From assembly GCA_029059705.1 (NCBI GenBank), contig JAIDVM010000015.1:62001-126000 (forward strand): a stretch of 64,000 nt of DNA, read 5' to 3'. Under the pieces are notes generated by a model. It was not told where the DNA came from, did not search any database, and worked only from the letters and a program-made list of their open reading frames with translations. The position numbers and the translations under genes were made by a program. Positions 24,084 to 57,255 of the stretch are shown piece after piece. How positions within the stretch are numbered: the stretch's first letter is position 1; each line of letters opens with the position of its first letter. Source of the stretch: Clostridia bacterium (lineage in GTDB: Bacteria; Bacillota; Clostridia; Christensenellales; Borkfalkiaceae).

Positions 24084-24205
24084 TAAACCGCATATAAGCT
24101 ACGCATAACTTTGTTGCGTTCCGCGCCGCCTCAGTCATGTACTTCTGTGTACACTCCTTCGGTGGTGCTCGCGCGCCTCGTTCTGCTTGCTTCTCTGCGG
24201 TTTTA
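24084..24205 (+). repeat. R2 structured repeat, copy 1 (between guaB and guaA)
   Basis: A 120-bp element. Ends AAACCGCA and TGCGGTTT pair; a hairpin TGTAC/GTACA (24138-24142 with 24149-24153) lies inside a stem CCGCC/GGTGG. Compared with other copies the outer stem carries a compensated C-G change. Confidence 0.85.
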
Positions 24206-24235
24206 ACTTTATGTATTACAAGAGGATTTTTACAT

Positions 24236-25777
24236 ATGCAACACGAAAAAGTTTTAATTTTGGACTTCGGCGGACAGTATAACCAGTTAATCGCAAGAAG
24301 AGTGCGCGAACACAACGTTTATTGCGAAGTCAAATCGTATAAAACGCCAATAGACGAAATCCGCGCCATGGATTTAAAGGGCATAATCTTTACGGGCGGA
24401 CCCAAATCCGTTTACCTTGAAGATTCCCCCCGCATGGATAAAGAAATTTTCGAACTCGGCGTGCCCATTCTGGGCATCTGCTACGGCGCGCAGTTCCTCG
24501 TTTACGGTTTGGGCGGCGAAATCGGCGCGGCAAGCGAAGAGGCGGCTGCGGAATTCGGCAGAACGGACTGCACTTTTGATACAAAGTCGCAGATATTCAA
24601 GGGGTTAAAGAAAAAATCCGTTGTTTGGATGAGCCATAACGACTACATAAAAACCCTTCCGCAAGGCTTCCGCTCGGTTGCCCACAGCGACAAGTGCCCC
24701 TACGGCGCAATCGAAAATCCCGAAAAGAAATTTTACGGCACGCAGTTCCACCCCGAGGTCAACCACACCGAGCAGGGCTTCGATATGCTCGGCAACTTCC
24801 TTTATAACGTGTGCGGCTGCAAGGGCGACTGGACGATGAAAGGCTACGCCGAAACCGCCACGCGCGAGCTTCGCGAAAAAATAGGCAACGGCAAAGCGCT
24901 TTTGGCTCTTTCTGGCGGCGTGGACAGCTCAGTCGCGTGCAAGCTGCTTGCAAACGCAATCGGCAGCCAGCTCACCTGCATTTTCGTAGACCACGGCTTA
25001 ATGCGCAAAAACGAGGGAGACGAGGTGGAGGCGGCTTTTGCGGGCAGCGGAGTTAATTTCGTTCGCGTAAACGCGGGCGAAAGATTCCTTTCGAAGCTTG
25101 CGGGCGTAACCGAGCCCGAAGCTAAACGCAAGATAATAGGCGAGGAATTTATCCGCGTGTTCGAGGAAGAGGCTAAAAAAATCGGCAAGGTGGATTACCT
25201 TGTTCAGGGCACTATATATCCCGACGTAATCGAAAGCGGGCTCGGCGACGCGGCGGTAATCAAATCCCACCACAACGTGGGCGGACTTCCCGACTACGTC
25301 GACTTTAAGGAAATAATCGAGCCTTTGCGCCTTTTGTTCAAGGACGAAGTCCGCGCGCTCGGCACGGCTTTGGGGCTTGACGACAAGCTTGTATGGCGCC
25401 AGCCCTTCCCCGGCCCCGGTCTTGCAATCCGCATTATCGGCGACATTACTCCCAAAAAGGTTAAGATTTTGCAGGAAGCCGACGCAATCTTCCGCGAGGA
25501 AATAGCCGCGGCAAAGCTTGACAGAGACATAAACCAATATTTTGCGGTGCTCACCAACATGCGCTCCGTGGGCGTTATGGGCGACGGAAGAACTTACGAT
25601 TACACCCTTGCGCTCCGCGGCGTAAGCACGACCGACTTTATGACGGCGGATTTTTCGCGTATTCCTTACGACGTTTTGGAAAAAGTTTCAAACCGCATAG
25701 TAAACGAGGTCAAGCACATAAACCGCATTGTGTATGACGTTACTTCTAAACCGCCCGCAACCATCGAATGGGAGTAA
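24236..25777 (+). CDS. guaA: GMP synthase (glutamine-hydrolysing)
   Basis: 513 residues from the ATG at 24236, preceded by AGAGGA; the longer in-frame reading comes from the R2 repeat and is rejected. The class I amidotransferase domain ([15 protein letters not shown] with the active Cys, FHPEVNHT) is followed by the ATP pyrophosphatase ([13 protein letters not shown]) and the dimerisation domain ending IEWE. It converts XMP to GMP. It stands behind guaB. Confidence 0.97.
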
Positions 25778-25806
25778 TAAAACGCATATAAGCTTTGCAT
25801 AATTTA
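25778..25806 (+). repeat. R2 fragment (5' end only) after guaA
   Basis: TAAAACGCATATAAGC then TTTGCATAATTT, one base after the guaA stop. Only the first quarter of the element remains. Confidence 0.7.
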
Positions 25807-25820
25807 ATGAAGAGTTAAAA

Positions 25821-27230
25821 ATGAATGATTTTCAGGCAACGGAAACGAGTTTGGAACAAGGTAACCGCTACCTGGGCGAGGAAAAAATTTCCCGCCTTAT
25901 GCTCAAATTTTCCGTACCGTGCGTGCTGTCGCTTGTCGTCAGCGCGCTTTACAATATAATAGACCAGATTTTTATAGGCAACAGCGAGCTGGGCACACTC
26001 GGCAACGGCGCGACGGGCGTCGTGTTTCCGCTTTTCGTAATCGCGCAGGCGTTTGCCTGGTGGTTCGGCGACGGCTGCGCGGCGTATTTAAACATTTGTC
26101 AGGGCGAAAAAAGTTCCCAAAACGCACACAGGGCAATCGGCACGGGCATTGTTTTAACCCTTGCCGCAAGCTTGGTTTTAATTGCTGTTTTCTTTCCGCT
26201 TAAATATCCGCTTTTAACGCTTTTCGGCGCGCGCGAGAACAATATGGAGCTTGCCGTGCAGTATTGCGACATAATCCTCGCATTTTTCCCCGTGATGATG
26301 CTGATGAATATGCTTTCAAGCGTCGTTCGCGCGGACGGCTCGCCGGGCTGGGCAATGGCTTCGATGCTGGCGGGCGCGGCGGTTAATATCGTTTTGGACG
26401 CCGTCTTTATCCTCGTCTTAAAATGGGGAATGGCGGGCGCGGCGTGGGCAACGGTTATCGGGCAAATAACTTCGCTTGCCGTTTCCGTTTTCTATCTTTG
26501 GCGCAAAACAAAAACGTTTAAACTCGGCTTAAAAAGCTTTGTTCCCGACTTTAAGGAATTTTCGGGTGCGGCAAAACTCGGCATATCATCTTTTATCACG
26601 CAGGCAACAATAGTAATCGTCGCCACCGTCGGCAACAACGCGCTTGCGCAATATGGCGAGCAGTCGGTTTACGGCGCGTATTCGCCCATTGCAATAATGG
26701 GTGTCGAAAACAAGGTTTACGCCCTCGTAATCAACCTTGTCGTGGGTATCTGTTTGGGCTGCCAGCCGATAATCAGCTATAACGTCGGGGCGAAAAACAC
26801 CAAAAGAGTAAAAAAATTATACCTTTCCATTCTTTTATGCACGTTAATAATCGGCGTCGTGGCAACGCTCGTGTTCGAGATTTTTCCCACGCAGGTTGCG
26901 GGGCTGTTCGGCGAGCCGAGCGGCGAGGGGGTAGACCCCGTAACTTACTGGCAGTTCGCCGAAAAAACCTTCCGCATATATTTAATGCTGGTTATATTTA
27001 CGCTGTTCGTCAAAATGACGTCAATCTTTTTTATGGCAGCGGGCAAACCCGTGTTTGCAACCGTGGTTTCGCTTATAAGGGACTTAATCTGTTTAATCCC
27101 GCTAATATGCGTTCTTCCCATATATCTGGGGGTTGAGGGCGTTTTATGGGCGGCTCCCGTGGCAGACGGCGTTTCGGCTGTCGTAACCGTAATCCTCACG
27201 GTAATCTGGTTTAAATCCTTGGATAAATAA
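25821..27230 (+). CDS. MATE family efflux transporter
   Basis: 469 residues with about 12 transmembrane helices and the MATE pattern (FSVPCVLSLVVSALYNIIDQIFIG, later GVENKVYALVINLVVGICLGCQPIISYNVGA). The DinF/NorM fold exports drugs or metabolites using Na+ or H+. It lies just after guaA but the R2 fragment between them may separate transcripts. The substrate is unknown. Confidence 0.92.
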   Translation: MNDFQATETSLEQGNRYLGEEKISRLMLKFSVPCVLSLVVSALYNIIDQIFIGNSELGTLGNGATGVVFPLFVIAQAFAWWFGDGCAAYLNICQGEKSSQNAHRAIGTGIVLTLAASLVLIAVFFPLKYPLLTLFGARENNMELAVQYCDIILAFFPVMMLMNMLSSVVRADGSPGWAMASMLAGAAVNIVLDAVFILVLKWGMAGAAWATVIGQITSLAVSVFYLWRKTKTFKLGLKSFVPDFKEFSGAAKLGISSFITQATIVIVATVGNNALAQYGEQSVYGAYSPIAIMGVENKVYALVINLVVGICLGCQPIISYNVGAKNTKRVKKLYLSILLCTLIIGVVATLVFEIFPTQVAGLFGEPSGEGVDPVTYWQFAEKTFRIYLMLVIFTLFVKMTSIFFMAAGKPVFATVVSLIRDLICLIPLICVLPIYLGVEGVLWAAPVADGVSAVVTVILTVIWFKSLDK

Positions 27231-27312
27231 AAGGCAATCCTTGTCGTTTCATGCAAGCGAAGCGCGCCGAAAAATTTAATCAGCTCCCGCAAGGGGGCTA
27301 TTAATTTACCTC

Positions 27313-27341
27313 TTGACTTTTTTAAAACTCTATGATATATT
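27313..27341 (+). promoter_or_regulatory. Promoter of helD, probably leaderless
   Basis: TTGACT (27313-27318), a 17-base spacer and TATATT (27336-27341). The expected start of transcription (about 27348) coincides with the helD ATG at 27349. Confidence 0.7.
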
Positions 27342-27348
27342 GAGGTGT

Positions 27349-29721
27349 ATGGCAGATTTTAAGACTGTTAAAAACTTAATCGACCCGCATAAGGAACCGG
27401 ATAAACAGTTCTTTACGGACTTGCTCGACGGCGAAAAACAACAAGCTTACGAAAACGAGCACATTAACGCCGTTATGCTCATGTTAAAGGCGCTGTATAT
27501 CTCGCGGCTGCGGTTAAAAATCATACGGTTAAAGGAAGAGCGCGAAGAGCTTAAAAAATCACCCGATTACGACGCGGAAAAATATAAAAGGACGCTCGAA
27601 ATCAACGCCGAAATAACCCGCCTTAACAAAAAAACCGAAGAATACAAGCCCTTTTTTGACGAGCCTTATTTTGCCAGAATGGACGTGACCGACGAAAAAG
27701 AGGGCTATAACAGCTATTATATCGGCAAGCGCGGCGACGAAGGGCTTGAAATAGTCGACTGGCGCGCCCCGCTCGCCCAAAAATACTACCAAAAAAGCCG
27801 CACGAGCTTTTCGATAAACGATTACGACTACAAGCTGGTTTTGCGCCGCGCTTTGCGTACGGGCAAGGGTAAAGTGCTCGACGTGAAAAACGAGTATTTA
27901 AACCTTTCCGACTACCTCACCAAAGAGGAGATAGGCGGGCGCGACGAGGCTTTGGTTTTCGACCCGTTTTTAAAGGAAATTCTGCGCACCCGCAAGGAAA
28001 AGCAGGAAATCTGCGACATAATCGAAACCATTCAGGAAAAGCAGTTCGAAATAATAACTCTGCCCGAAGAAGACAGGTTCATTTTGCAGGGCGTTGCGGG
28101 CAGCGGCAAAACCATGATACTTTTGCACCGTCTTTCGTATATCATGTACAACAACGAAAGCGTGCGCCCCACCGACGTGTTGGTAATCACCCCGTCCGAT
28201 TCGTTTAACGCGTTCATCGACGAGCTTTCGCAGGTTTTAGAGCTGCAAAAAGTTAAAACCAGCACGTTGGAGAGGTACTTTATCAACCTTTTGAAGAGTA
28301 CGGGGCTCGAAGTCGAAAGCAAAATAAACTTCTCCGCGCCCGTGCCCGAAAGCTATTTAAGCTATATCTATTCCCCCGCGTTCGTAAAGGACGTCGAGGC
28401 AAAGCTTTCTAAAATTTTCGACGGCGTTTACGGCATGTTTGCCGCGGACGACTGCCGCGGAGTAATCGACGGGGTTTTGGCAGTTTGCGAAGAACAGATT
28501 GAAGAGTACGAAAAGCTTAAAAACGCGGGCTTGCGCGTGCGCCGCTGCGTGCTCGGCGAAATAAAGGAAAAGCCCGACGGCGGACTTTATTATACAAAGC
28601 AGTTCCGCTATATGTTCAACTGCATTCTGGATTTAAAGGAATTTCTTTCGCTCGTGTTTACGGACGACAGAATGAAGGGCTATGCCTATTTCTACCGTCA
28701 GCTCCTTTCTTTTTATAAATCAATAAAATTTTTGCGCCGCTATTCAAATAAAATCTGTCAAACGGCGGTGGAAGATTTGTCGCGGCTTTTAGAATCCGTC
28801 GAAAAGGAAATAACCGACTTAAAACGCTATAAAATGAAGTTGGGCGCAACCGAAGTGCTTACCTATGCCGACGGAATTGAAAAGCGCGAACAGCTTAAAA
28901 CCGAGATTAGCGCCGCAATATGCGCCGTTGAACGCATTTTAAGCGGGTTTTCGGTCTTTTACGATTTTGCCGACGTTTTGCGCGGCGAAACCTATTTCAC
29001 CGCAATCGGCAAGTGTGAAAACACGGCGGACATTTTAAGATTTTTCTATAAGGAAACCGTGCGCAAGGCAAAGCAGAAATACGGCGTTGCCTTAAAGCCG
29101 TTAATAAAAAGCGACCCGTTTTCTATGTGCTTATTGCTGACCCGCCTCGGCTTTAACCTTTCGCCGAAGTATTCCTTTATTTTCGTCGACGAGGCGCAGG
29201 ACGTTTCCCCCGCCGAATACGGGGTGTTAAAAGCGGTAAACGACAGAGCGGTTTTTAATATTTTCGGCGACTTAAAGCAAAATATCACCCCGTGGCGCGG
29301 CATAAAAAACTGGGAGGAAATAGGTTACAAGCTTTATAATTTAAAGTTAAACTACCGCAATACCGATAAAATAGTCAGCTTCGTTTCGCAAAATCTCGGC
29401 ATAGACATGCAGTCGATAGGCTTCGAGGGTACGGAGGTGGAGCGCGTTTCGCCGCGCGCCGTTACAAGCTGGCTCAACGAAAAAAACGGGCTTAAAGCCG
29501 TGATATGCACGTGGCAATCGCTTTTTAAATACTCAAAAAAGATTTATAACGTAATAAGCGAAACGGGCAAAATTTCGAAAACCAAAATTAATTTAATGAC
29601 GGTTTACGAAAGCAAGGGGCTTGAATTCACCGCCGTTGCCGTCGCCGACGCCGACATGACGGTAAACGAAAAGTATATTGCGTACACCCGCGCTTTAAAA
29701 AATCTGGCAATTATAAATTAA
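27349..29721 (+). CDS. helD: HelD-type UvrD-like helicase, RNA polymerase recycling factor
   Basis: 790 residues from the ATG at 27349; the earlier TTG reading coincides with the -35 box. An N-terminal coiled coil (residues 40-85, RLRLKIIRLKEEREELKK) and a DWRAPLAQKYY motif fit HelD. Walker A is GVAGSGKTM near residue 246, Walker B FIFVDEAQDVSP near 613, and motif VI-like AYTRAL closes the protein. HelD removes stalled RNA polymerase from DNA. It is a single-gene unit. Confidence 0.85.
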   Translation: MADFKTVKNLIDPHKEPDKQFFTDLLDGEKQQAYENEHINAVMLMLKALYISRLRLKIIRLKEEREELKKSPDYDAEKYKRTLEINAEITRLNKKTEEYKPFFDEPYFARMDVTDEKEGYNSYYIGKRGDEGLEIVDWRAPLAQKYYQKSRTSFSINDYDYKLVLRRALRTGKGKVLDVKNEYLNLSDYLTKEEIGGRDEALVFDPFLKEILRTRKEKQEICDIIETIQEKQFEIITLPEEDRFILQGVAGSGKTMILLHRLSYIMYNNESVRPTDVLVITPSDSFNAFIDELSQVLELQKVKTSTLERYFINLLKSTGLEVESKINFSAPVPESYLSYIYSPAFVKDVEAKLSKIFDGVYGMFAADDCRGVIDGVLAVCEEQIEEYEKLKNAGLRVRRCVLGEIKEKPDGGLYYTKQFRYMFNCILDLKEFLSLVFTDDRMKGYAYFYRQLLSFYKSIKFLRRYSNKICQTAVEDLSRLLESVEKEITDLKRYKMKLGATEVLTYADGIEKREQLKTEISAAICAVERILSGFSVFYDFADVLRGETYFTAIGKCENTADILRFFYKETVRKAKQKYGVALKPLIKSDPFSMCLLLTRLGFNLSPKYSFIFVDEAQDVSPAEYGVLKAVNDRAVFNIFGDLKQNITPWRGIKNWEEIGYKLYNLKLNYRNTDKIVSFVSQNLGIDMQSIGFEGTEVERVSPRAVTSWLNEKNGLKAVICTWQSLFKYSKKIYNVISETGKISKTKINLMTVYESKGLEFTAVAVADADMTVNEKYIAYTRALKNLAIIN

Positions 29722-29752
29722 ACGCGCAACGGCAATAAAATTATTTATTCGC

Positions 29753-29781
29753 TTGTCTAATCCTTTAAAAAGTGGTACAAT
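29753..29781 (+). promoter_or_regulatory. Promoter of the DUF4011 helicase gene
   Basis: TTGTCT (29753-29758), a 17-base spacer and TACAAT (29776-29781). Confidence 0.65.
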
Positions 29782-29827
29782 CAAGAAGAATATTTTAGTC
29801 GCATATCCGTGCGAAAGAGGGGCATAT

Positions 29828-38415: not shown

Positions 38416-39492
38416 CTAATCAAAATACCCTTTCGCCGCAAGCAGTTCGGCAAGTAAAACCGCGCCGCCCGCCGCGCCCCTTAACGTGTTGTGCGAAAAC
38501 CCGATAAACTTGTAATCGAACAAATTATCCTCGCGCAAACGCCCCGCGCAAACCGCCATGCCGTTTTCGGTGTATCTGTCCAGCTTGGGCTGGGGGCGGT
38601 TGTCTTCCTCGAAATAATGAATAAACTCAGCGGGGGCGGAGGGCAGCTTCAAGGTCTGCGGCTCGCCGTAAAATTCTTTCCACGCCTTTAAAATCTCTTC
38701 CTTTGTCGGCTTAGTTTCAAACTTAACAAAGCACGCCGCCGTATGCCCGTCCGAAACGGGTACTCTCACGCATTGCGCCGTGATGACGGGCGCGTCCGCG
38801 GGCACGATTTTGCCGTCTGAAATTTCGCCCCAGATTTTTAAAGGCTCTTTTTCGCTCTTTTCTTCCTCGCCGCCGATGTAAGGTATAACGTTGTCCAAAA
38901 TTTCGGGCATCGTTTCAAAGGTCTTGCCCGCGCCCGAAATTGCCTGATAAGTGCAAACCGCCGCGCTTACAATTCCGAATTTCTTCAACGGGTGCAAAAG
39001 GGGCACGTAGGATTGCAGCGAGCAGTTGCTCTTAACCGCAACAAACCCGCGCTTAGTCCCAAGCCGTTTTTTCTGCGCCGCAATAACTTGCAGGTGCTCG
39101 GCGTTTATTTCGGGAATAATCATCGGCACGTCGTCCGTAAAACGGTGCGCCGAATTGTTCGAAACGATAGGGCACTCTGATTTAGCGTAAGCCGTTTCAA
39201 GCTCTTTAATGTCGTTTTTGGGCATGTTCACCGCGCAAAAGCAAAAATCCACTTTTTGTGCAATGGCTTTCATGTCCGCCGACGCGTCCATAACGGTTAC
39301 GTTTGCAAACTTTTCGGGCATAGGCTCGGCAAGGTGCCACTTTTTAACCGCGTCCTTATATTTTTTGCCCGCCGAAGAGGCGGAGGCGGCAAGGCACGCA
39401 ACCTCGAATTGCGGGTGGTTTGCAAGCAGCAGCAAAAACCGCTGTCCAACCATGCCCGTCGCACCGATAACGCCAACTTTATACTTTTTCAT
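38416..39492 (-). CDS. asd: Aspartate-semialdehyde dehydrogenase
   Basis: 358 residues from the ATG at 39492, preceded by AAGGAG. NADP motif GVIGATGMVGQRF, the active-site Cys in VKSNCSLQSY, and SDGHTAACF typical of the longer archaeal/fungal-like Asd form. It makes aspartate semialdehyde for lysine, DAP, threonine and methionine. First gene of the operon; its leader holds a lysine riboswitch and an R2 copy. Confidence 0.94.
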   Translation of the reverse strand: MKKYKVGVIGATGMVGQRFLLLLANHPQFEVACLAASASSAGKKYKDAVKKWHLAEPMPEKFANVTVMDASADMKAIAQKVDFCFCAVNMPKNDIKELETAYAKSECPIVSNNSAHRFTDDVPMIIPEINAEHLQVIAAQKKRLGTKRGFVAVKSNCSLQSYVPLLHPLKKFGIVSAAVCTYQAISGAGKTFETMPEILDNVIPYIGGEEEKSEKEPLKIWGEISDGKIVPADAPVITAQCVRVPVSDGHTAACFVKFETKPTKEEILKAWKEFYGEPQTLKLPSAPAEFIHYFEEDNRPQPKLDRYTENGMAVCAGRLREDNLFDYKFIGFSHNTLRGAAGGAVLLAELLAAKGYFD

Positions 39493-39506
39493 AATTTTCT
39501 CCTTTT

Positions 39507-39627
39507 TAAAACGCATATAAGCGGCGCAATACGGCGTTGCGTTCCGCTTTTTTCGGTTACATACTTCTGTGTATGCGCCCTCAAAAAATGCTCGCGCTCC
39601 TTGTCTTGCTTGCTTCTCTGCGTTTTA
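39507..39627 (+). repeat. R2 structured repeat, copy 2 (in the asd leader, opposite orientation)
   Basis: Ends AAAACGCA and TGCGTTTT; apical stem CATAC/GTATG (39560-39564 with 39571-39575); middle stem TTTTTT/AAAAAA (39548-39553 with 39583-39588). The stems differ in sequence from the other copies but still pair. It abuts the asd ribosome site. Confidence 0.85.
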
Positions 39628-39644
39628 TGCTAGTCGTTTCCCTC

Positions 39645-39672
39645 TGTCATTCTGAGACTTGTCGAAGAATCC
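39645..39672 (+). repeat. R1 dispersed repeat
   Basis: TGTCATTCTGAGACTTGTCG then AAGAATCCC, between R2 copy 2 and the riboswitch terminator. Confidence 0.8.
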
Positions 39673-39673
39673 C

Positions 39674-39703
39674 GAAAAACAAAAAGACAGCTTGCGCTGC
39701 CCT
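39674..39703 (-). terminator. Attenuator terminator of the lysine riboswitch
   Basis: On the minus strand GGCAGC, GCAA loop, GCTGTC, then TTTTTGTTTTT. Placed directly after the aptamer, it fits transcription attenuation of asd-dapA-dapB. Confidence 0.75.
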
Positions 39704-39725
39704 CCGAAACGTCATAAATCAAAAC

Positions 39726-39900
39726 GGCATTAGCGCAACACTAAAAGTGACAGTCGCAAGGGTATTAACCCGTGCGCCCGACGCGGGGCAAGGCAGCCCG
39801 CACCTCGGCGGAGGCGCCCTTTTGCCGCAACTTCAACGGAATTTCCCTTAAAAATCCCTCCGTCCGCGGTTACTTTTGCCCGTCCGCTCCTCTGAATGCT
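39726..39900 (-). promoter_or_regulatory. Lysine riboswitch (L box)
   Basis: Read on the minus strand: closing stem GCATT/AATGC (39895-39899 with 39727-39731), AGAGGAGCG (39885-39893), an AAAAGTA turn, AAAGGGCGCC followed by CGCCGAGG, the hairpin GGGTTAATACCC (39760-39771), and ACTGTCA (39748-39754). These blocks, in this order, match the lysine aptamer as known from Bacillus lysC and Thermotoga asd. Position ahead of asd-dapA-dapB agrees. Lysine binding would favour the terminator at 39674-39703. Confidence 0.85.
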
Positions 39901-39905
39901 CTTAA

Positions 39906-42990: not shown

Positions 42991-43359
42991 ATGTCAAACA
43001 CAATAAAAAATCAAATCTGCGACGAAGAAGAGGTGCATAAGGCGCGCGTAAAGTCCGCCCTCGGCAACATGCCGTCGGAAGAAAACATAGCCGAGCTTTC
43101 CGAACGCTTTAAAGCCTTGTCCGAAGCTTCCCGCCTTAAAATACTGTTCGCTCTTTCGGGCGGCGAGCTGTGCGTCGAGCACATCACCGAAGCCGTAAAC
43201 GGACTTCAAAGCGCCGTTTCGCACCAGCTCAAAACGCTGCGTTTAAACAAAATCGTCAAGTGCAGAAGAGAGGGCAAAAAAGTCCTCTATTCCGTGTCGG
43301 ACGACCACGTAATCACAATGATAAACGTTGCAAAGGAGCACTTAAACTGCGATGAATAA
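42991..43359 (+). CDS. ArsR/SmtB family metal-sensing repressor
   Basis: 122 residues from the ATG at 42991, with AAAGGAG 7 bases upstream; an ATG at 42955 lies in the operator and is rejected. Winged helix with LKILFALSGGELCVEHI and SAVSHQLKTLR. The last helix carries D-x-H-x10-H-x2-C (DDH...KEHLNC), like the zinc site of SmtB/CzrA but with Cys in the last position. The CadC-type alpha-3 site is incomplete (ELCVEH has one Cys). So Zn or Cd sensing at helix 5 is likely. It overlaps the P1B ATPase gene by 8 bases. Confidence 0.9.
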   Translation: MSNTIKNQICDEEEVHKARVKSALGNMPSEENIAELSERFKALSEASRLKILFALSGGELCVEHITEAVNGLQSAVSHQLKTLRLNKIVKCRREGKKVLYSVSDDHVITMINVAKEHLNCDE

Positions 43360-45697
43360 CGTAATTAAAATAAGCGGGCTCGACTGCGCCAACTGCGCCC
43401 GCGAGCTTGAAGAAGAAATTTCAAAAATAAAGGGAGTAACTTCGGCAACCGTCGATTTTATGGCACAAAAGGTATATTGCGACTGCGACGAAAGAACTCT
43501 CGAAAAGATAAAATACTGTTGTAACCATTTTGAAGAAGTCAAAGTGGAGGAAGAGCAAGCCGTCCCGCAAACAAGTTCCCCAACCGCGCAAAACTCCCGC
43601 ATATACGGCGAAAAAATCAAAATAGCCAACCTCTGCTGCGCCAACTGCGCCCGCGAGCTCGAAGAAGAACTCAACAAAATCGAGGGCGTTTCCGCCACGG
43701 TGGACTTCATCAATATGCGCGTAATACTCAACGCCCCCTCGCCCGACCTGCGCGAAAAGGCAATTTACGCAATCACCCACTTCGAAAACGTAAAAATAGT
43801 GGACGGCAAAGCTCCGCAAAAGGGCATAATCAAAGCTCACTTAAAAGAAATTATCTTAATAGCCGTCGCCACCGCGCTGTTTATTCCCGCGCTCGTTTTG
43901 CAACTTACGGGAATAACGGAAGAGCTCGCGGGTAAAATTGCCGCATGGGTGTTATACGGCGTTTCATATCTGGTAATCGGTTATCCCGTGCTCTGGAACA
44001 CGTTAAAAAATATCGCCAAGGGCAAAATCTTCGACGAAAACTTTTTAATGACGATAGCCTCGCTCGGCGCAATCGCCCTAGGTATATTCGCGGACGACGG
44101 CTTTGTCGAAGGCGTCGCGGTCATGCTCTTATACCAAATCGGCGAGCTGTTGCAGTCCGTCGCCGTCGGCTCGTCGCGTAGCTCCATTTCCGCGCTCATG
44201 GACATGAAAAGCGACAGCGCAACGCTGCTTGAAAACGGCGTTCAGCGCGTAATATCCCCCGACGAATTGCGTTTGGGCGATATAATAATGATTAAAGTCG
44301 GCGAAAAAGTCCCCGTTGACTGCCGCATAACAAGCGGAGCAACCTCGCTCGATATGAAAAGCCTCAACGGCGAACCGCTCCCCCGCGACGTAAAGGAAGG
44401 GGACGAAATTCTGTCGGGCAGTATAAACCTTTCAAAGGTAATCGAAGCGGAGGTTATAAGGGAATACAAAAACTCCGCCGTCGCAAAAATTTTAGAGCTT
44501 GTCGAAAATTCCACCGCAAAAAAATCCAAGCCCGAAAAATTCATAACCAAATTCGCCAAATATTACACGCCCGCCGTCTGCGCCGCGGCTTTAATTGTCG
44601 CCGCGCTCGTTCCCACCGTAATATGCGCCGTCCGCGGCGCTTTCGTGTGGCCGACCTACAAAGAATGGCTTTACAACGCGCTCAGCTTCCTCGTCATTTC
44701 CTGCCCGTGCGCGCTCGTCATTTCGGTGCCGCTGTCCTATTTCGGCGGCATAGGCCGCTGCGCCAAATCGGGCATACTCGTCAAAGGCTCAACGTGCCTT
44801 GACGAACTCGCCCTTTCCACGGTCGCCGCGTTCGATAAAACGGGCACCTTAACCGTCGGCGCCTTCCAAATCAAAAATTCAACTAACGAAAAAACCTTAA
44901 AGCTCGCCGCCGCCGCGGAAAAATTTTCCTCGCACCCCATCGCAGCCGCGTTTAACGGCGTGGAAACCGATTACGTTGCAGCCGAGGCGGAAGAGGTGGC
45001 GGGCAAGGGCGTAAGGTGTGTGGTAGAGGGCAAGCCGCTCCTTTGCGGCAACGCCAAGCTTTTAAAGGAAAACGGAATTGCCTTCACTCCCGTAAAAAGC
45101 CCGTCAACCCTCGTATATGTCGCGTTTAACGGCGAATATATCGGCGTAATCGAAATAGACGACAGCCTTAAAGAGGGCGTAAAGGAAACGGTTTCGCAGC
45201 TCAAATCTCAGGGCGTGGTGTATACCGAAATGCTCACGGGCGACCTTCCCGAACGCGCCGAACTCGTTGCCAAAGAGGCGGGGCTCGACGGCTTTAAAGC
45301 CGCGCTTTTGCCCGACGAAAAGCTCGCGCGTGCCGAACAGTTAAAGGAAAAAGGCAAACTAATTTACGTCGGCGACGGCGTAAACGACGCCCCCGTAATG
45401 ACGGCTGCGGATTGCGCAGTTTCAATGGGCAGCGTGGGCAGCGACGCGGCAATCGAGGCAAGCGACGTAGTTATCATTTCCGACAATATTTCCCTTCTTC
45501 CCAAGGGCAAAAAAATCGCCAAAGCCACGCGAAGAATAGTAATACAAAACATAATCGGCTCGCTCCTCGTCAAGCTTGCAATCATGGCGCTAAGCGTTGC
45601 AATAGCCGACTTCCATCTCATTGTCGCGGTCGTCGCGGACGTGGGGGTTATGCTCCTCGCCGTTGTCAACGCAATGCGCACAGCGTTAATCAAGTAA
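43352..45697 (+). CDS. P1B-type Cd/Zn/Pb-translocating ATPase with two heavy-metal domains
   Basis: 781 residues. Two N-terminal HMA domains with CANCAREL (near residues 10 and 93), the transmembrane CPC motif in SCPCALVISVPLSYFGG, DKTGTL phosphorylation site, SSHPIAAAF, and GDGVNDAPVM. The last helices carry the ADVGVMLLAVVNAMR pattern of the Zn/Cd/Pb group (P1B-2), as opposed to Cu pumps. It exports divalent metal under control of the ArsR protein. The stop codon TAA is also the first part of an R2 repeat. Confidence 0.93.
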   Translation: MNNVIKISGLDCANCARELEEEISKIKGVTSATVDFMAQKVYCDCDERTLEKIKYCCNHFEEVKVEEEQAVPQTSSPTAQNSRIYGEKIKIANLCCANCARELEEELNKIEGVSATVDFINMRVILNAPSPDLREKAIYAITHFENVKIVDGKAPQKGIIKAHLKEIILIAVATALFIPALVLQLTGITEELAGKIAAWVLYGVSYLVIGYPVLWNTLKNIAKGKIFDENFLMTIASLGAIALGIFADDGFVEGVAVMLLYQIGELLQSVAVGSSRSSISALMDMKSDSATLLENGVQRVISPDELRLGDIIMIKVGEKVPVDCRITSGATSLDMKSLNGEPLPRDVKEGDEILSGSINLSKVIEAEVIREYKNSAVAKILELVENSTAKKSKPEKFITKFAKYYTPAVCAAALIVAALVPTVICAVRGAFVWPTYKEWLYNALSFLVISCPCALVISVPLSYFGGIGRCAKSGILVKGSTCLDELALSTVAAFDKTGTLTVGAFQIKNSTNEKTLKLAAAAEKFSSHPIAAAFNGVETDYVAAEAEEVAGKGVRCVVEGKPLLCGNAKLLKENGIAFTPVKSPSTLVYVAFNGEYIGVIEIDDSLKEGVKETVSQLKSQGVVYTEMLTGDLPERAELVAKEAGLDGFKAALLPDEKLARAEQLKEKGKLIYVGDGVNDAPVMTAADCAVSMGSVGSDAAIEASDVVIISDNISLLPKGKKIAKATRRIVIQNIIGSLLVKLAIMALSVAIADFHLIVAVVADVGVMLLAVVNAMRTALIK

Positions 45698-45816
45698 AAC
45701 GCATATAAGCTACGCATAACTTTGTTGCGCTGTGGCAACTTTCAGTCACTTGCGCCAAAGCAAGCTCCTTCAAGTTTTCCTCGCGCTCCTCGTTCTGCTT
45801 GCTTCTCTGCGTTTTA
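45695..45816 (+). repeat. R2 structured repeat, copy 3 (after the P1B ATPase)
   Basis: Ends AAAACGCA and TGCGTTTT; apical stem CTTGC/GCAAG (45749-45753 with 45760-45764); middle stem AACTT/AAGTT (45737-45741 with 45772-45776). Its first three bases are the ATPase stop codon. Confidence 0.85.
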
Positions 45817-45853
45817 CGGTAACCGTCCCCGCGGGAAGCATCGCTCCCGCACT

Positions 45854-45880
45854 TGTCATTCCGAGCGAAGCGAATAAGCT
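45854..45880 (+). repeat. R1 dispersed repeat (short)
   Basis: TGTCATTCCGAGCGAAGCG then AATAAGC, in the 360-bp gap before the purine permease. Confidence 0.7.
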
Positions 45881-51516: not shown

Positions 51517-51558
51517 CCTTTATTTTCCAAAATTTTACCAAAAAACAAAAAAAACAAT

Positions 51559-51587
51559 TTTACTTATTAAATTAAATATAGTACAAT
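51559..51587 (+). promoter_or_regulatory. Promoter of secA
   Basis: TTTACT (51559-51564), a 17-base spacer and TACAAT (51582-51587). Confidence 0.6.
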
Positions 51588-51622
51588 TAAAAGCGGGAAA
51601 AAATCTTTAAAAGAGGAAGTAT

Positions 51623-54600
51623 ATGGGACTTATAAAATATATACTCGGCGCGGACTCGCGCAGCGCCTTAAAAAAGCTCAATAAAATGGCTTTAAAGGTA
51701 GAAGAACTCGACGAAAAATACGCGGCAATGTCCGACGAAGAATTAAAGGGACAAACCCAAATTCTCAAAAACCGCCTTGCGGGCGGCGAAACGCTCGACG
51801 ATATCATGTACGACGCGTTCGCGGCTTTAAGAGAGGCAAGCTGGCGCGTGCTCAAAATGAAGCACTTCCACGTGCAGATTGTCGGCGGCATATGTCTGCA
51901 CCAAGGCAGAATTGCCGAAATGAAAACGGGCGAAGGTAAAACCCTCGTTTCAACACTCCCCGCATACCTCAACGCGCTCACGGGCAAGGGCGTGCATATC
52001 GTTACCGTCAACGACTACCTCGCCAAGCGCGACGCCGAGTGGATGGGCAAGGTTCACAAATTCATGGGCTTAACCGTCGGCGTGGTCGTCCCCGGCATGG
52101 ACGACGAGGACAAAAAGAAGTCCTACGCCTGCGACATAATCTACGCCACCAACAACGAGCTCGGCTTCGATTATCTTAGGGACAACTTAAAAACTTCAAT
52201 CCCCGCAATGGTTCAGCGCGAGCTCAACTATTGCATAATCGACGAGGTTGACAGCATTTTAATCGACGAGGCGAGAACCCCGCTCATAATTTCCGGACGC
52301 GGCGGCGAAAGCTCTATTTTGTACGAACAGGTAGATAAATTCGTCCGCACCCTGTCGGGCGGCTTCGACGACGACAAAAAGGACGCCGAAAAGAACGCGC
52401 CCACCCGCAAAAAGAAAGAGCTTTCCGAAAAGGAGCTTCAAGCGCAGCAAAAGCTTCAAGCCGTCCTCGAAGAAATGGAAAATTGGGACTATATAATCGA
52501 CAGAAAGGAAAAATCGGTAACCATTACCGAAAAGGGCGCCGAAAAAGCCGAAAGATTTTTCAATATCAAAAACCTCGGCGATATTGAAAACGCCGAACTC
52601 AACCACCATATTCAGCAAGCCTTAAAGGCTCACGAATTATTCCACAACGGCGAAGAATACATCGTCTCGCAGGACGGTGAAATTTTAATCGTCGACGAAT
52701 TTACGGGGCGCGTTTTAAACGGCAGAAGATATTCCGACGGACTTCATCAGGCAATCGAAGCCAAGGAAAAGGTTAAGGTAAAGGAAGAAAACAAAACCCA
52801 CGCAACCGTAACCTTCCAAAACTATTTCCGTTTATACTCAAAGCTCGCGGGCATGACGGGTACGGCAATGACCGAAGAGGACGAGTTCCGCACCATTTAC
52901 TCGCTGGACGTAGTTCCCATTCCCACCAACCGCCCCGTGCAGAGAATTGACGAAGCCGACATGATTTACTCCACAGTAGAGGGCAAAAAGAAGGCAATCG
53001 TCAACGAGGTGGTAAAACGCCACGAAAAAGGGCAGCCTATCTTAATAGGTACGGTAACCGTAGAAAAGTCCGAAGAAATTTCAAGGCTTTTAAGAAGAAA
53101 CGGCATAAAGCACAATATCTTAAACGCAAAAAACCACGAGCGCGAGGCTGAAATCGTCGCGCAGGCGGGCAGATTAAACGCCGTAACCATCGCCACCAAC
53201 ATGGCGGGGCGCGGCACCGACATTCTTTTGGGCGGCAACCCCGAATACCTCGCCAAAAAGCGCATGCGCGAAGAGGGCTACGACCACGAAATGGTAGAAG
53301 TTGCAATCTCCTATGCCGACAGGGAATTCACCCCCGAAGAGCAGACCGCGCGCGACAGATATGCCGAGCTTTACAAAAATTACAAGGCTGAAACCGACGC
53401 CGAAAAGCAGGAAGTAATCGCAGCCGGCGGCTTGTGCATAATAGGCACCGAGCGCCACGAATCCCGCCGTATCGACAACCAGCTCCGCGGACGAAGCGGT
53501 CGTCAGGGCGACCCCGGCAGCTCCGTGTTCTTCATTTCGCTCGAAGACGATTTGGCAAAACGCTTCGGCGGCGAAAGCATGAAAAGGCTTTACGAAGTCT
53601 TTAAAATCGACGACGACCAATGCCTTCAATCAAAAATGCTCACGCGCAGCGTCGAAAACGCCCAAAAGGCAATCGAGGGCAGAAACTTCGGCATAAGAAA
53701 GCACACCCTTCAATACGACGAAGTAATGAACGAACAGCGCAAAACCATCTACGGCGAGCGCATGAAAGTGTTAAAGGGCGAGGACGTGCACGGGCAAATG
53801 CTTAAATATATCCCCGACTATATCGCAAAAGTTTTAAGCGAAACGGTCGATACCTCGGCAATGCCCGAAAAGTGGGACGAGCTCGCCTTAAACGCCGCCC
53901 TCGCGCAAAAAGTCTACCCCGACGAATGCACGTTCGAAATCACGCGCGAAATGTTGGAGCGCTGGGATTACGAAAAGGCTTTAAACAAAATTTCAAAGGA
54001 AGTAATCAAAGCCTACGAGCAGAAAATAGTCAACATTGCCGACATGACCGAAGGGCAGGTAGACTATCACCAGATAGAGCGCAACGAGCTTTTGCGCTCG
54101 GTAGACCGAAACTGGATAGACCACATCGACGCAATGGACCAGCTCAGAAAGGGCATAGGCTTGCGCGGCTACGCCCAGCAAGACCCCGTAATCGCCTACA
54201 AGCAGGAAGGTTACGAAATGTTCGAAGAAATGATTGACCGCGTCCAAACCACAACCATTTCAAGGCTATTAAAGGGCAGAATAGTAAGGGTTGAACAACC
54301 CCGCCCCGCAATGCGCCCCATGCCCCAAACTCAAACGGGCATGAACCCGTCTGTTGCGGCTCGCGCCGAAGAAATCGCCAACAAGCGCGCTTCCGAAAAC
54401 CCCGCGCAGCAAAATAACGCAACCGAAAACGCGCCCGCACCCGCTAAGCCCGCGCAGGGCAGCGCCCCCTTAATAGGGCAAGCGCCCCAGCCCCCCAAGG
54501 ACTTGTTCACCAATATCGGCGGCAAGCAAATCCCCAAAACCGCGCCCAAATCGGCAAAAGTCGGCAGAAACGACCCCTGCCCCTGCGGCAGCGGCAAAAA

Positions 54601-54637
54601 GTATAAGGATTGTTGCTACTGGAAAGACAACAAGTAA
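51623..54637 (+). CDS. secA: Protein translocase ATPase SecA
   Basis: 1004 residues. Nucleotide site MKTGEGKTLVSTLPAYLNAL, DEVDSILIDEARTPLIISG, NMAGRGTDILLGG, and DNQLRGRSGRQGDPG. The C terminus keeps the SEC-C zinc motif (NDPCPCGSGKKYKDCCYW), used for SecB or ribosome contact. The linker before it is Ala/Pro/Gln-rich. It drives preprotein export through SecYEG. Stop codon TAA begins R2 copy 4. prfB follows, the common secA-prfB order, though here 245 bp of repeats lie between them. Confidence 0.98.
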   Translation: MGLIKYILGADSRSALKKLNKMALKVEELDEKYAAMSDEELKGQTQILKNRLAGGETLDDIMYDAFAALREASWRVLKMKHFHVQIVGGICLHQGRIAEMKTGEGKTLVSTLPAYLNALTGKGVHIVTVNDYLAKRDAEWMGKVHKFMGLTVGVVVPGMDDEDKKKSYACDIIYATNNELGFDYLRDNLKTSIPAMVQRELNYCIIDEVDSILIDEARTPLIISGRGGESSILYEQVDKFVRTLSGGFDDDKKDAEKNAPTRKKKELSEKELQAQQKLQAVLEEMENWDYIIDRKEKSVTITEKGAEKAERFFNIKNLGDIENAELNHHIQQALKAHELFHNGEEYIVSQDGEILIVDEFTGRVLNGRRYSDGLHQAIEAKEKVKVKEENKTHATVTFQNYFRLYSKLAGMTGTAMTEEDEFRTIYSLDVVPIPTNRPVQRIDEADMIYSTVEGKKKAIVNEVVKRHEKGQPILIGTVTVEKSEEISRLLRRNGIKHNILNAKNHEREAEIVAQAGRLNAVTIATNMAGRGTDILLGGNPEYLAKKRMREEGYDHEMVEVAISYADREFTPEEQTARDRYAELYKNYKAETDAEKQEVIAAGGLCIIGTERHESRRIDNQLRGRSGRQGDPGSSVFFISLEDDLAKRFGGESMKRLYEVFKIDDDQCLQSKMLTRSVENAQKAIEGRNFGIRKHTLQYDEVMNEQRKTIYGERMKVLKGEDVHGQMLKYIPDYIAKVLSETVDTSAMPEKWDELALNAALAQKVYPDECTFEITREMLERWDYEKALNKISKEVIKAYEQKIVNIADMTEGQVDYHQIERNELLRSVDRNWIDHIDAMDQLRKGIGLRGYAQQDPVIAYKQEGYEMFEEMIDRVQTTTISRLLKGRIVRVEQPRPAMRPMPQTQTGMNPSVAARAEEIANKRASENPAQQNNATENAPAPAKPAQGSAPLIGQAPQPPKDLFTNIGGKQIPKTAPKSAKVGRNDPCPCGSGKKYKDCCYWKDNK

Positions 54638-54757
54638 AACGCATATAAGCTACGCATAACATTGTCGTGCTTGCGTTTTCCTCGGGTCATGTACTTCATG
54701 TACACTCCCCGTCGTCGAGCCGCGCACTCCTCGTTCTGCTTGCTTCTCTGCGTTTTA
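54635..54757 (+). repeat. R2 structured repeat, copy 4 (between secA and prfB)
   Basis: Ends AAAACGCA and TGCGTTTT; apical stem TGTAC/GTACA (54690-54694 with 54700-54704); middle CTCG/CGAG (54681-54684 with 54716-54719). Starts on the secA stop codon. Confidence 0.85.
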
Positions 54758-54794
54758 GGGTTAGCGTAATCGCTCCCGCAATTTCACCCCCCCT

Positions 54795-54865
54795 TGTCAT
54801 TCTGAGGCTTGCCGAAGAATCTTTTTGCGCATTGCAAAGCAATTTCTTGCGCAAAAATCACACTA
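54795..54865 (+). repeat. R1 dispersed repeat with extended nested hairpin
   Basis: TGTCATTCTGAGGCTTGCCG then AAGAATC, followed by TTTTTGCGCA, a TTGC-AAA-GCAA hairpin, and TTGCGCAAAAA. Longer form of the TTTTTGCGCAAAAA tail seen at 35550. Confidence 0.8.
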
Positions 54866-54882
54866 CAATCAGGAATTACCCC

Positions 54883-55983
54883 ATGTTCAAAGCAGACGAT
54901 TACAGATTAAAATTAAAAGCCCTCTCGGATACCTTGTCCGAGGCAAAATACGCGCTCGATATCGACAACCTCGGTTCACGCCTTTCCCAATTAAAGGAAG
55001 AGCAGGAAAACCCCGAAGTCTGGCAGGATTTGGAAAAATCCAAAAAAATCGCGCGCGAAATTTCGGCTGTCGAAAATAAAATCGCCTCCTACGAAAGCGG
55101 CAAATCCGCGCTTGCCGACGCGTCCGCATTTATCGATTTAATCGAGGAAGCCGACGACGAAAGCTTAATCCCCGAGCTCGAAAACATGATTACCGCCGCC
55201 GCGGACGATATCGAAAACATGCGCATACGCGCGCTCCTCCGCGGCAAATACGACGGCAACAACGCAATTTTAAACCTCCACGCAGGCGCGGGCGGCACCG
55301 AAGCGTGCGACTGGACGCAAATGCTTTACCGCATGTACAGCCGCTACTGCGAACAGCAGGGCTTTAAAGTAACCGAGCTCGACTTCGAGGACGGCGACGA
55401 AGCGGGCATAAAAAGCGTTTCCTTCAAGGTCGAAGGCGAAAACGTCTACGGCTTTTTAAAGGCGGAAAAGGGAGTGCACCGCTTAGTCCGCATTTCCCCC
55501 TTCGACAGCAATAAACGAAGACACACCTCGTTCGCCTCGTTAGAGGTAATGCCCGAAATCGACGACGAAAACGAAGTCGAAATCAAGGACGAGGACATAA
55601 GAATAGACGTATACCGTTCAAGCGGCGCGGGCGGGCAAAAGGTAAACAAAACCGAAACGGCAATAAGAATTACCCACTTCCCCACGGGCATAGTGGTAAC
55701 CTGCCAAAACGAGCGCAGCCAGCTCCAAAACAAAGCCATGGCTTTCGAGTATTTGCGCGCAAAATTAATCGAAAGGCAAATCGCCGAGCGCGAAGCGGCC
55801 GACGCCGAAATCAAGGGCGAAATCAAAAAGATAGAGTGGGGCAGCCAGATAAGAAGCTACGTTTTCTGCCCTTACACCCTCGTAAAGGACCACCGCACGG
55901 GCTACGAAAACACCAACGTTCAGGCGGTTATGGACGGCGACATTCAGGGTTTTATAATCGACTACCTCAAAAAAACAGTTTAA
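54883..55983 (+). CDS. prfB: Peptide chain release factor 2, no programmed frameshift
   Basis: 366 residues from the ATG at 54883 (AGGAATT upstream). The GGQ loop (SSGAGGQKVNKTE) and the stop-reading tripeptide SPF in RISPFDSNKRR identify RF2, reading UGA and UAA. The reading frame is open through the region where most prfB genes carry an in-frame UGA and +1 frameshift, so the usual autoregulation is absent. In-frame codons upstream come from R1/R2 repeats and are not coding. The TAA begins a partial R2. Confidence 0.95.
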   Translation: MFKADDYRLKLKALSDTLSEAKYALDIDNLGSRLSQLKEEQENPEVWQDLEKSKKIAREISAVENKIASYESGKSALADASAFIDLIEEADDESLIPELENMITAAADDIENMRIRALLRGKYDGNNAILNLHAGAGGTEACDWTQMLYRMYSRYCEQQGFKVTELDFEDGDEAGIKSVSFKVEGENVYGFLKAEKGVHRLVRISPFDSNKRRHTSFASLEVMPEIDDENEVEIKDEDIRIDVYRSSGAGGQKVNKTETAIRITHFPTGIVVTCQNERSQLQNKAMAFEYLRAKLIERQIAEREAADAEIKGEIKKIEWGSQIRSYVFCPYTLVKDHRTGYENTNVQAVMDGDIQGFIIDYLKKTV

Positions 55984-56028
55984 ACCGCATATAAGCTTCG
56001 TTATGCTTTGTCAAACTCCGCGCCGCCA
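55981..56028 (+). repeat. R2 fragment (5' part) after prfB
   Basis: TAAACCGCATATAAGC then TTCG and a GC-rich piece; the 3' arm is missing. Stop codon of prfB is its first three bases. Confidence 0.7.
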
Positions 56029-56046
56029 CGCATATGTTTCACCCCG

Positions 56047-56070
56047 CAAGTGCAAAAAAACGCACTTGCC
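56047..56070 (+). promoter_or_regulatory. Hairpin in the tsaD leader
   Basis: GCAAGTGC, AAAAAAAC loop, GCACTTGC. An 8-bp stem 29 bases before the tsaD ATG; purpose unclear. Confidence 0.4.
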
Positions 56071-56098
56071 CCAAAACACACTTATAATTTCCCCGCAT

Positions 56099-57136
56099 AT
56101 GTACGACAAAACAACCTTCAAACTTAAAGAAAACCCCGTAATTTTGGGCTTGGAATCGAGCTGCGACGAAACCGCCGCCGCAATCATATGCGGCAGAAAG
56201 TTGCTTGCAAACCAAATCATTTCGTCAGCAACCGAACAAGCCAAATACGGCGGCGTCGTGCCCGAAATCGCCTCGCGCGCACATACCGAGGCTGTCGCAC
56301 ATGTCGTTTCCCGCACGTTAGCCGAAGCGCATATGCCCGCAACCGCAATCGACGCGGTCGCCGTCACCTACGGCGCGGGGCTTCTGGGCGCGCTCCTCGT
56401 CGGGTTGTCGTTCGCAAAAGCCTTTGCCTACGCCTTAAACGTGCCTTTAATCGCCGTCAACCACATCCGCGGTCACATGGCGGCAAGCTATTTAATCGAT
56501 ACAAGCTTAAAGCCCCCCTTCGTCACGCTTTTGGCAAGCGGCGGGCACACCGCAATTCTCCACACCCAAACCCCGACAAAATTCAAGGTTTTGGGCGGAA
56601 CGTGCGACGACGCCGCGGGCGAAGCATTCGATAAAGTCGCCAGAGTTCTCGGTTTAAGCTACCCCGGCGGGGTAAACGTCGAAAAGCTCGCAAAAAGCGG
56701 GCAAAACGCCGTCCCCCTCCCCAAATGTTTAGTTAAAAACTCGCAAAGCATGCAGTTTTCGTATAGCGGCTTAAAAACCGCGGTAATCAATTACTGCCAC
56801 AATAAAGAGCAAAAGGGCGAAGAGGTAGACAGGGAAAACGTCGCCTGCTCCTTCCAGCACGCGGCAATCGACCCGCTCGTCAAAAAAACGGTGGAGTGCG
56901 CGCAAAATCTGCGCGTAAGCACGGTGACCGCGGGCGGCGGGGTAATCGCCAACGGCTATTTAAGGGAGCAGCTCACAAAAGAGTGCCAAAAGGCGGGCTT
57001 AAAACTCGTCCTGCCCGAAAAAAAGTTCTGCACCGACAACGCGGCAATGATAGCGGCGGAAGGCTTAATCCAATATCAGGCGGGTAACTTCGCCGATTTA
57101 TCCCTTAACGCCGCCGCCCAAATCCCATTAGTTTAA
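56099..57136 (+). CDS. tsaD: tRNA N6-adenosine threonylcarbamoyltransferase (Kae1/TsaD)
   Basis: About 345 residues from the ATG at 56099; longer reading runs back into repeat DNA. Motifs: LGLESSCDETAAAI, the metal site NHIRGHMAA, LASGGHTAI, GEAFDKVARVLGL and a late VTAGGGVIANGYLRE. It attaches threonylcarbamoyl to A37 of ANN-reading tRNAs. No clear ribosome site. The TAA begins R2 copy 5. Confidence 0.95.
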   Translation: MYDKTTFKLKENPVILGLESSCDETAAAIICGRKLLANQIISSATEQAKYGGVVPEIASRAHTEAVAHVVSRTLAEAHMPATAIDAVAVTYGAGLLGALLVGLSFAKAFAYALNVPLIAVNHIRGHMAASYLIDTSLKPPFVTLLASGGHTAILHTQTPTKFKVLGGTCDDAAGEAFDKVARVLGLSYPGGVNVEKLAKSGQNAVPLPKCLVKNSQSMQFSYSGLKTAVINYCHNKEQKGEEVDRENVACSFQHAAIDPLVKKTVECAQNLRVSTVTAGGGVIANGYLREQLTKECQKAGLKLVLPEKKFCTDNAAMIAAEGLIQYQAGNFADLSLNAAAQIPLV

Positions 57137-57255
57137 AACGCGTATATGCTTCGCATAACTTTGTTGCGTTCCGCTTTTCGTCGGGTCGTTTACGCAAAGT
57201 AAACTCCCCTTGAAAATGCTCGCGCGCCTCGTTCTGCTCGTATCTCCGCGTTTTA
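57134..57255 (+). repeat. R2 structured repeat, copy 5 (after tsaD)
   Basis: Ends AAAACGCG and CGCGTTTT, a compensated A-to-G / T-to-C change in the outer stem relative to most copies. Apical stem GTTTAC/GTAAAC (57188-57193 with 57199-57204); middle TTTTC/GAAAA (57175-57179 with 57212-57216). Confidence 0.85.

Follow-up and report, generated by a model that had tools for sequence, protein, structure and literature searches.

According to the available part of PMC2229807, the ERIC, RUP, Correia/NEMIS and RPE elements have terminal repeats whose length is stated and, for the most part, TA ends, and each is listed for one bacterial group. REP and REPIN sequences are palindromes in dispersed copies, which RAYT transposases are thought to mobilize in trans (excerpts of PMC2817692 and PMC8266576), and the intergenic repeats of P. 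fluorescens include R178 (101 bp, with an 11-bp inverted repeat inside it) and R30 (120 bp), according to the excerpt of PMC2718517. A DNA hairpin or cruciform lies at the target of a diversity-generating retroelement (excerpt of PMC3240598). Here, we analyze a dispersed hairpin element of about 120 bp in a 64,000-nt stretch of DNA from a Clostridia bacterium (GenBank assembly GCA_029059705.1, contig JAIDVM010000015.1, positions 62,001 to 126,000; hereafter the window). The element was not found described in the titles and abstracts of the open-licence literature that was searched.

Like ERIC, RUP, Correia/NEMIS and RPE, as far as these are portrayed in the source above, the element measures ~100-200 bp, forms one long stem-loop and is dispersed and non-autonomous. 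Unlike them, it is found across phyla, lies at stop codons and conserves nothing but its loops and shape. R178 and R30 are similar in size and copy number, come from a phylum where the fold is found and could belong to the same family. The element shares with REP/REPIN the nature of a dispersed palindrome, but Y1 transposase was not found in several of the element-rich genomes studied here. The attC sites of integrons carry the boxes RYYYAAC and GTTRRRY, and their apex is variable. As with attC, the element lies just past a stop codon, one of its DNA strands folds and its stems are free to vary; unlike attC, it lacks the core boxes and an integrase over the cut-off, has a conserved apex and is scattered after chromosomal genes, not in a cassette array. 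The hairpin of diversity-generating retroelements is reportedly short and associated with a variable gene together with a reverse transcriptase. Both are DNA hairpins near a gene 3' end that may mark a target, but the reverse transcriptase domain RVT_1 was not found in several element-rich genomes here. The reading that we favor, at slightly less than an even chance, is a non-autonomous, shape-recognized DNA-hairpin element that has spread among gene 3' ends.

Fold, matched changes and distribution

A preliminary description, made from the letters of the window, had reported five full copies. Direct reading and alignment recover all five at the positions it gave, together with a sixth, truncated copy:

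24084..24204, + strand: copy 1, starting 6 nt past the stop codon of guaB (IMP dehydrogenase, open reading frame (ORF) 22623-24077, +); 126.8 bits
39507..39627, + strand: copy 2, lying antisense to asd, which is on the minus strand (ORF listed at 38416-39516); 117 bits
45695..45816, + strand: copy 3, opening with TAA, the stop codon of a gene for a heavy-metal P-type ATPase (ORF 43352-45697, +; gap -3); 135.9 bits
54635..54757, + strand: copy 4, opening with the secA stop codon (ORF 51623-54637, +)
57134..57255, + strand: copy 5, opening with the tsaD stop codon (ORF 56003-57136, +)
25778..25805, + strand: sixth copy, truncated to its 5' 28 nt, directly past the guaA stop codon (ORF ends at 25777)

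The matched changes quoted in the preliminary description for the outer, middle and apical stems were all found on reading the five copies. Its statement that the copies share their ends needs an amendment for copy 5, where the ends differ slightly (AAAACGCG..CGCGTTTT, GTATATGC). Of the loops and flanks that it called conserved, the loops are, and the sequence outside the element is not; the tail beyond the element is conserved weakly, at the subfamily level.

RNAalifold on 63 aligned rows gave essentially the same rod that can be read by eye. Its helices are the 8-bp outer stem P1, P1b, P2 (which contains a T.C mismatch), P3, P4, P6 of only two pairs and, at the apex, P5, with conserved internal loops between them. 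In copy 3, the parts are as follows:

45696..45703, + strand: 5' arm of the outer stem P1, pairing with the 3' arm at 45808..45815, +
45707..45710, + strand: P1b, AAGC, pairing with GCTT at 45801-45804; ATAC/GTAT and AAAC/GTTT in other copies
45714..45720, + strand: P2, GCATAAC with the T.C mismatch, pairing with GTTCTGC at 45792-45798
45721..45726, + strand: conserved internal loop TTTGTT, opposite TCCTC at 45787-45791
45727..45730, + strand: P3, GCGC, pairing with 45783-45786
45737..45741, + strand: P4, AACTT, pairing with AAGTT at 45772-45776; a very variable stem
45744..45748, + strand: AG TCA opposite CTC CT (45765-45769), forming the two-pair P6 and a conserved 3x3 loop below the apex
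45749..45764, + strand: apical hairpin P5, CTTGC-GCCAAA-GCAAG

The stems vary in pairs, as in P2 (GCATAAC/GTTCTGC, GCAATAC/GTCTTGC, GCATCTC/GACCTGC and GCATTGC/GCACTGC) and P3 (GCGC/GCGC, AAGC/GCTT, GAAC/GTTC and GTGC/GCAC). After 11 truncated, rearranged or near-duplicate rows were dropped from the 63, the remaining 52 copies of the genus made up alignment A2, in which 92.6% of 1765 cells are paired, compared with 31-49% when the 3' partner is slid by 1-3 columns. Both sides have changed in 28 of the 34 base pairs, all seven helices covary, and the covariation score was reached by none of 500 column shuffles. In alignment A5, which holds 46 copies from other phyla and was fitted to the model, 90.8% of the cells are paired, against 36-50% when slid. 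Covarying helices, a mark of structured RNA, are thereby seen in both alignments, and the internal loops and T.C mismatches are kept across phyla. The preliminary description had seen a selected structure rather than simple repeat spread, a view that a lack of covariation in a larger alignment was to overturn; by pair counts with shuffles and slides (not R-scape), the larger alignment does covary, which supports a maintained structure over plain, decayed repeat spread.

Matched changes may also arise by mutation, without selection. If replication template switching copies one palindrome arm onto the other, two-sided changes appear without intermediates, and two-sided changed cells (318 in A2 and 456 in A5) do far outnumber one-sided changes to a standard pair (28 and 14). 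The absence of a wobble bias fits such copying, which would also explain why the 3' arm of queA-associated copies follows the codons of the gene (see below). On the other hand, 7.4% of the cells in A2 and 9.2% in A5 are unpaired, and so intermediates are not absent. Template switching should also erase the internal loops and T.C mismatches, yet both persist across phyla, and it leaves the placement at stop codons unexplained. We regard it as quite unlikely to be the explanation in itself, and it may act together with the favored DNA element.

The fold is widespread. The genome to which the window belongs (G000; 1.51 Mb, 41 contigs) gave 36 BLAST matches to one copy, some of them partial, and at least 38 copies at E ≤ 1e-4 with R1, a covariance model built from the 52 copies of A2. 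The fold is present in 84 of 93 genomes of the genus and, in a sample of the order, in 125 of 297 genomes and 47 of 125 genera; per-genome copy counts in these searches, and in the family and phylum searches that follow, are lower bounds. Loci in named genomes were picked by one apical pattern, with organism names as labeled in the records, and among the matches listed (80 of 120 stretches) most come from uncultured Clostridia, including Candidatus Coproplasma, and others from Sulfurovum, Arcobacter, a SAR86-labeled metagenome-assembled genome and Gracilibacteria. At E ≤ 0.01, R1 found 27 copies in the Arcobacter genome, 27 in the SAR86-labeled one, 9 in Gracilibacteria and 2-4 in each of three Sulfurovum genomes. 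Among the 81 genomes of the family to which the Arcobacter genome belongs, 38 match at 1e-4, several of them on million-base contigs, and in the phylum of the SAR86-labeled genome, 11 of 299 match at 1e-5, placing the element in a few Pseudomonadota. The earlier observation is confirmed and larger than reported, and its interpretation is partly supported.

Weak matches to short forms of ~47 nt, consisting of the outer stem and the first hairpin (AAACGCATATAAGC..CTGCGTTTTT), start at 10417 and 3175 on the minus strand of locus L020.

Position at gene ends

Gene ends were taken from simple ORF calls. The main set combines alignments A3 and A4 (252 rows, a few of them from other phyla; 220 after removal of short and duplicate rows, 197 with enough flank). 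In 128 of these 197 copies, the element starts between -14 and +10 nt from the stop codon of a same-strand ORF of at least 90 codons, compared with 7 in the mirrored control and 9.6 at random positions; with the rows from other phyla removed, the count is 126 of 195. The copies of A5 behave alike (35 of 42 at stop codons; 3 in the mirrored control and 26 of 840 at random positions). Of 186 copies, 162 share their strand with the nearest upstream ORF, and the median gap is 4 nt. Two offsets dominate: at -3, the first TAA of the element is the stop codon, and at -14, the stop codon falls inside the first internal loop.

The host genes are diverse. Ten host proteins were named by NCBIfam, with guaB, guaA, asd, a metal P-type ATPase, secA, tsaD, lysS, queA and htpG over the cut-off and a piece of secY below it; the remaining hosts were identified by reading C-termini, which added secY, infA and clpP. 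Ends like that of guaA carry the element in the genus, in Sulfurovum and in one Pseudomonadota genome. Copy 2 of the window, between asd and a lysine riboswitch (39723-39903, -), is an exception to gene-end placement.

The relation to the host gene is closest at queA. In 23 queA copies, the 5' arm consists of the conserved C-terminal codons of the gene, and the 3' arm matches the codons of its own gene at 8.65 of 11 positions, against 6.35 for permuted partners (none of 2000 permutations was as high). In tandem arrays at queA, the extra copies bear other queA-like ends, sometimes of another coding type than the host gene (L092, L211).

The placement bears on two proposed roles in transcripts. 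The link to stop codons and to the direction of transcription would also suit an element of the mRNA. The main rival to the favored DNA element is a structured RNA of the 3' untranslated region or between cistrons, co-transcribed with the upstream gene and acting on mRNA stability or processing, an effect proposed for ERIC and NEMIS transcripts in the available part of PMC2229807. The dependence of strand and position on the upstream gene speaks for such an RNA, as do the loops conserved across phyla and the location of 123 of 186 copies between co-directional ORFs. We consider it unlikely, though a serious contender; the evidence against it is given in the next section.

The same 123 copies count against the giant terminator suggested in the preliminary description, and an intrinsic, possibly bidirectional, transcription terminator is to us the least probable of all the roles weighed here. 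Many copies of the genome end in GCGTTTT, as a terminator might, but TTTT near the 3' end was found in only 68 of 227 main-set copies and 21 of 45 copies from other phyla, and many outer stems are GC-rich with no T run. (The counts of T runs, TA ends and attC boxes, on 227 copies, and those of folding energy, on 232, use slightly different filters of the main set.) Since the element often lies between co-directional genes, it is not a general terminator, and this role was rejected on the T-run counts and the co-directional positions.

Three to five elements, partial ones among them, follow each other in tandem at a spacing of ~105-190 nt at L035 1207-1622, L038 1482-1986, L224 4284-4871, L144 2259-2835 and L263 2766-3145. 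In the window (39490-39903), copy 2 may alter the expression platform of the lysine riboswitch.

Pairing in DNA or in RNA

Paired RNA tolerates G-U and not A-C. In the element, G-U makes up 2.2, 2.0 and 1.4% of cells and A-C 1.4, 2.4 and 3.1% in A3, A4 and A5, respectively, and the pooled counts are 189 and 201 cells. In the acceptor and T stems of 25 tRNAs from the same loci, 300 cells hold 21 G-U (7.0%) and no A-C, a small yardstick in which the absence of A-C is partly built in because the tRNA finder favors standard pairs. Since G-U is about as rare as A-C in the element, unlike in the tRNAs, the counts point to pairing in DNA. Some A-C cells lie in outer arms that are out of register, and the inner helices alone show 136 G-U against 110 A-C, a slight lean toward G-U that speaks for the RNA. 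A3 leans to G-U (57 against 27 A-C) and A5 to A-C (13 against 34), and therefore no strand is favored throughout. The preference for G-U over A-C on one strand, a further mark of structured RNA, was not found, and an overall wobble preference is not clear, which argues against the RNA.

The two strands differ in stability. With DNA parameters, the strand antisense to the upstream gene folds more stably in 228 of 232 main-set copies and in 42 of 45 copies from other phyla, with mean energies of -23.9 against -18.7 kcal/mol for the gene strand in the main set and -20.2 against -16.0 kcal/mol in other phyla. The mean strand differences, -5.3 and -4.2 kcal/mol, compare with -1.4 kcal/mol in shuffles, although the sign is shared by 67 of 80 and 41 of 45 shuffled copies, so that in other phyla the sign alone does no better than the shuffles. 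The transcribed strand is also the less stable one with RNA parameters, in 225 of 232 copies. As can be seen in the sequence, loops rich in pyrimidines on the gene strand are rich in purines on the opposite one. We read the pair counts, folding energies and loop composition together as pairing maintained in DNA, which is the weakest-calibrated of the main steps.

The less stable fold of the transcribed strand counts against an RNA element, and so does the difference in presence among close relatives (see below). In addition, Rfam 15 gave no match on the element, either in the window at gathering scores or in 12 loci at E ≤ 1. No known RNA family was thus found, and the one match to n00280 lay beside the element, not on it. 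Of the 3' untranslated-region element proposed in the preliminary description, the position just past stop codons on the same strand holds, and the pairing chemistry does not fit, with no preference for wobble and a better fold on the antisense strand.

The n00280 match is a sub-threshold one (47.3 bits, cut-off 65.2) at L356 1146-1244, upstream of an Arcobacter-family element.

Gain, loss and a possible mover

There is good evidence for gain, loss and dispersal of the element. Copy 4 of the window and a copy on contig C1 are identical at 122 of 123 positions and over 30 of 30 nt past the 3' end, and their left flanks are unrelated (27%). The copied unit therefore starts at TAAAACGC, and the pair, at different genes, shows recent copying. 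At the lysS 3' end, surveyed in 50 of the 93 genomes of the genus (the 30 most similar and 20 chosen from the list), the element is present in 13, a 14th match (L300) lying elsewhere. G000 has it at lysS, and three genomes with 89-90% identical LysS do not. Among seven relatives, the secA end bears a full element with different arms in G004 and G078, a decayed one (16 bits) in G095 and none in G005, G009, G079 and G094. The site of copy 3 is occupied in one of seven relatives (G004), and that of copy 5 in none of six.

Evidence on the insertion reaction is weak. Strong direct repeats of the left flank were found downstream in 21 of 201 copies, compared with 0 expected from permuted pairs; signs of a target-site duplication are clear within tandem arrays and weak where a copy stands singly.

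The arms bear on a further rival, a TA-flanked miniature inverted-repeat transposable element (MITE) of the ERIC/RUP/Correia kind with diverged ends. Size, palindromy and dispersal agree with it, and in the own genome, the element carries its arm along, with TAAAACGCA or AAAAACGCA at the start of 17 of 31 copies. However, the arms are no fixed terminal repeat, with 15 different 9-nt arm starts in the same 31 copies and the same picture in other species, and only 19 of 227 main-set copies and 5 of 45 from other phyla have TA at each end. Placement at stop codons is not named for ERIC, RUP or Correia in the available part of PMC2229807. MITE-like was the best-fitting of the three roles in the preliminary description, short of a fixed terminal repeat and TA ends; an actual MITE of that kind seems improbable.

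A relative of integron attC sites is more improbable still, despite a position directly past stop codons, a better-folding antisense strand, structure kept while stems vary and tandem copies. A core box at each end was seen in 0 of 227 main-set copies and 1 of 45 from other phyla, the apex is conserved where that of attC is variable, and no integron integrase exceeded the curated cut-off in any of the 93 genomes, though weaker tyrosine-recombinase matches occur in 87. An integron origin was rejected on the absent core boxes and the lack of an integrase over the cut-off.

In the DNA-hairpin element that we favor, the unit is an imperfect palindrome of ~120 bp that would fold as single-stranded DNA, the antisense strand folding better. 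A protein would recognize its shape as a whole and the conserved internal loops, whatever the sequence of the stems. The base of the outer stem lies at or over the stop codon of the host gene; in some families, the element supplies the TAA stop codon, and in others, as at queA, the last codons of the gene serve as the 5' arm. Mobility as the general cause of the spread would call for a putative recombinase or transposase acting in trans. The 3' arm matching the gene end may reflect guided targeting or the copying of one arm from the other. A bolder version, which we consider doubtful, is that these are cross-phylum, shape-recognized elements that integrate at gene 3' ends in the form of folded single-stranded DNA and have an outer arm complementary to the last codons of the host; base pairing would set the target, and the gene end would be kept or restored.

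Several observations weigh against the favored element. The link to stop codons and transcription direction, the lean of A3 and of the inner helices toward G-U, the built-in part of the tRNA contrast and the strand sign in other phyla have been given above. Of the 21 strong direct repeats, 19 are in loci with several elements. A search for repeats found no target duplication at any window copy; copy 3 alone shows a candidate, whose score of 10 is a level reached in 27 of 201 copies, compared with 10.35 expected. No mobility gene was read by eye in the 60 largest clusters of neighboring ORFs of 233 copies. Y1 transposase occurs in 28 and RVT_1 in 30 of the 93 genus genomes, but neither was found in the element-rich G029, G006, G102, G111, G106 and G107, which is inconsistent with a Y1 transposase or a reverse transcriptase as the mover, and both candidates were rejected. 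An exact-pattern scan of viral contigs gave no match. BLAST, which has little power where stems are free to diverge, found a clostridial copy neither in plasmids nor in E. coli genomes, with one 39-nt partial match in phages; a Pseudomonadota copy had no match in plasmids or phages, and an Arcobacter-family copy none in plasmids. The missing plasmid and phage matches are unexpected for an active mobile element.

If the bolder version is true, it would be a second system of folded DNA sites, independent of integrons, in which loci such as queA accumulate gene-end pieces in tandem. The occurrence of the element in gut Clostridia, Campylobacterota, Gracilibacteria and Pseudomonadota, its stems free and its loops fixed, implies a widespread recognizing protein, and if this protein acts on folded DNA, it bears on the origin of integron-like folded sites beside genes. 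The element is also a warning for RNA discovery, since covariation alone would label it an RNA and the wobble count speaks against that label.

Contigs C4 and C10 of G000 have two open frames near the contig starts, both of 321 aa and both with tyrosine-recombinase-like segments, and C4 also has an RVT_1 frame. A second dispersed repeat, TTGTCATTCTGAGCGNAGCCGAAGAATC, lies 3' of several elements (window 45852-45880, 54793-54821 and 57270-57299, and other loci), and at some of these loci, it is preceded by a GCGGGAAGCATCGCTCCCGC hairpin. A mini hairpin of 24-26 nt, GTAAGGC-loop-GCCTTCGGTACGAC, is absent from the window and has six occurrences elsewhere: L002 ~2561 + (= L009:4805-4949), L020 ~13023 -, L025 ~2505 -, L307 ~177 -, L064 ~1655 + and L086 ~1751 +. 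By eye, at least four of the six split GT|C in a loop of the larger element, as if the smaller hairpin inserts there.

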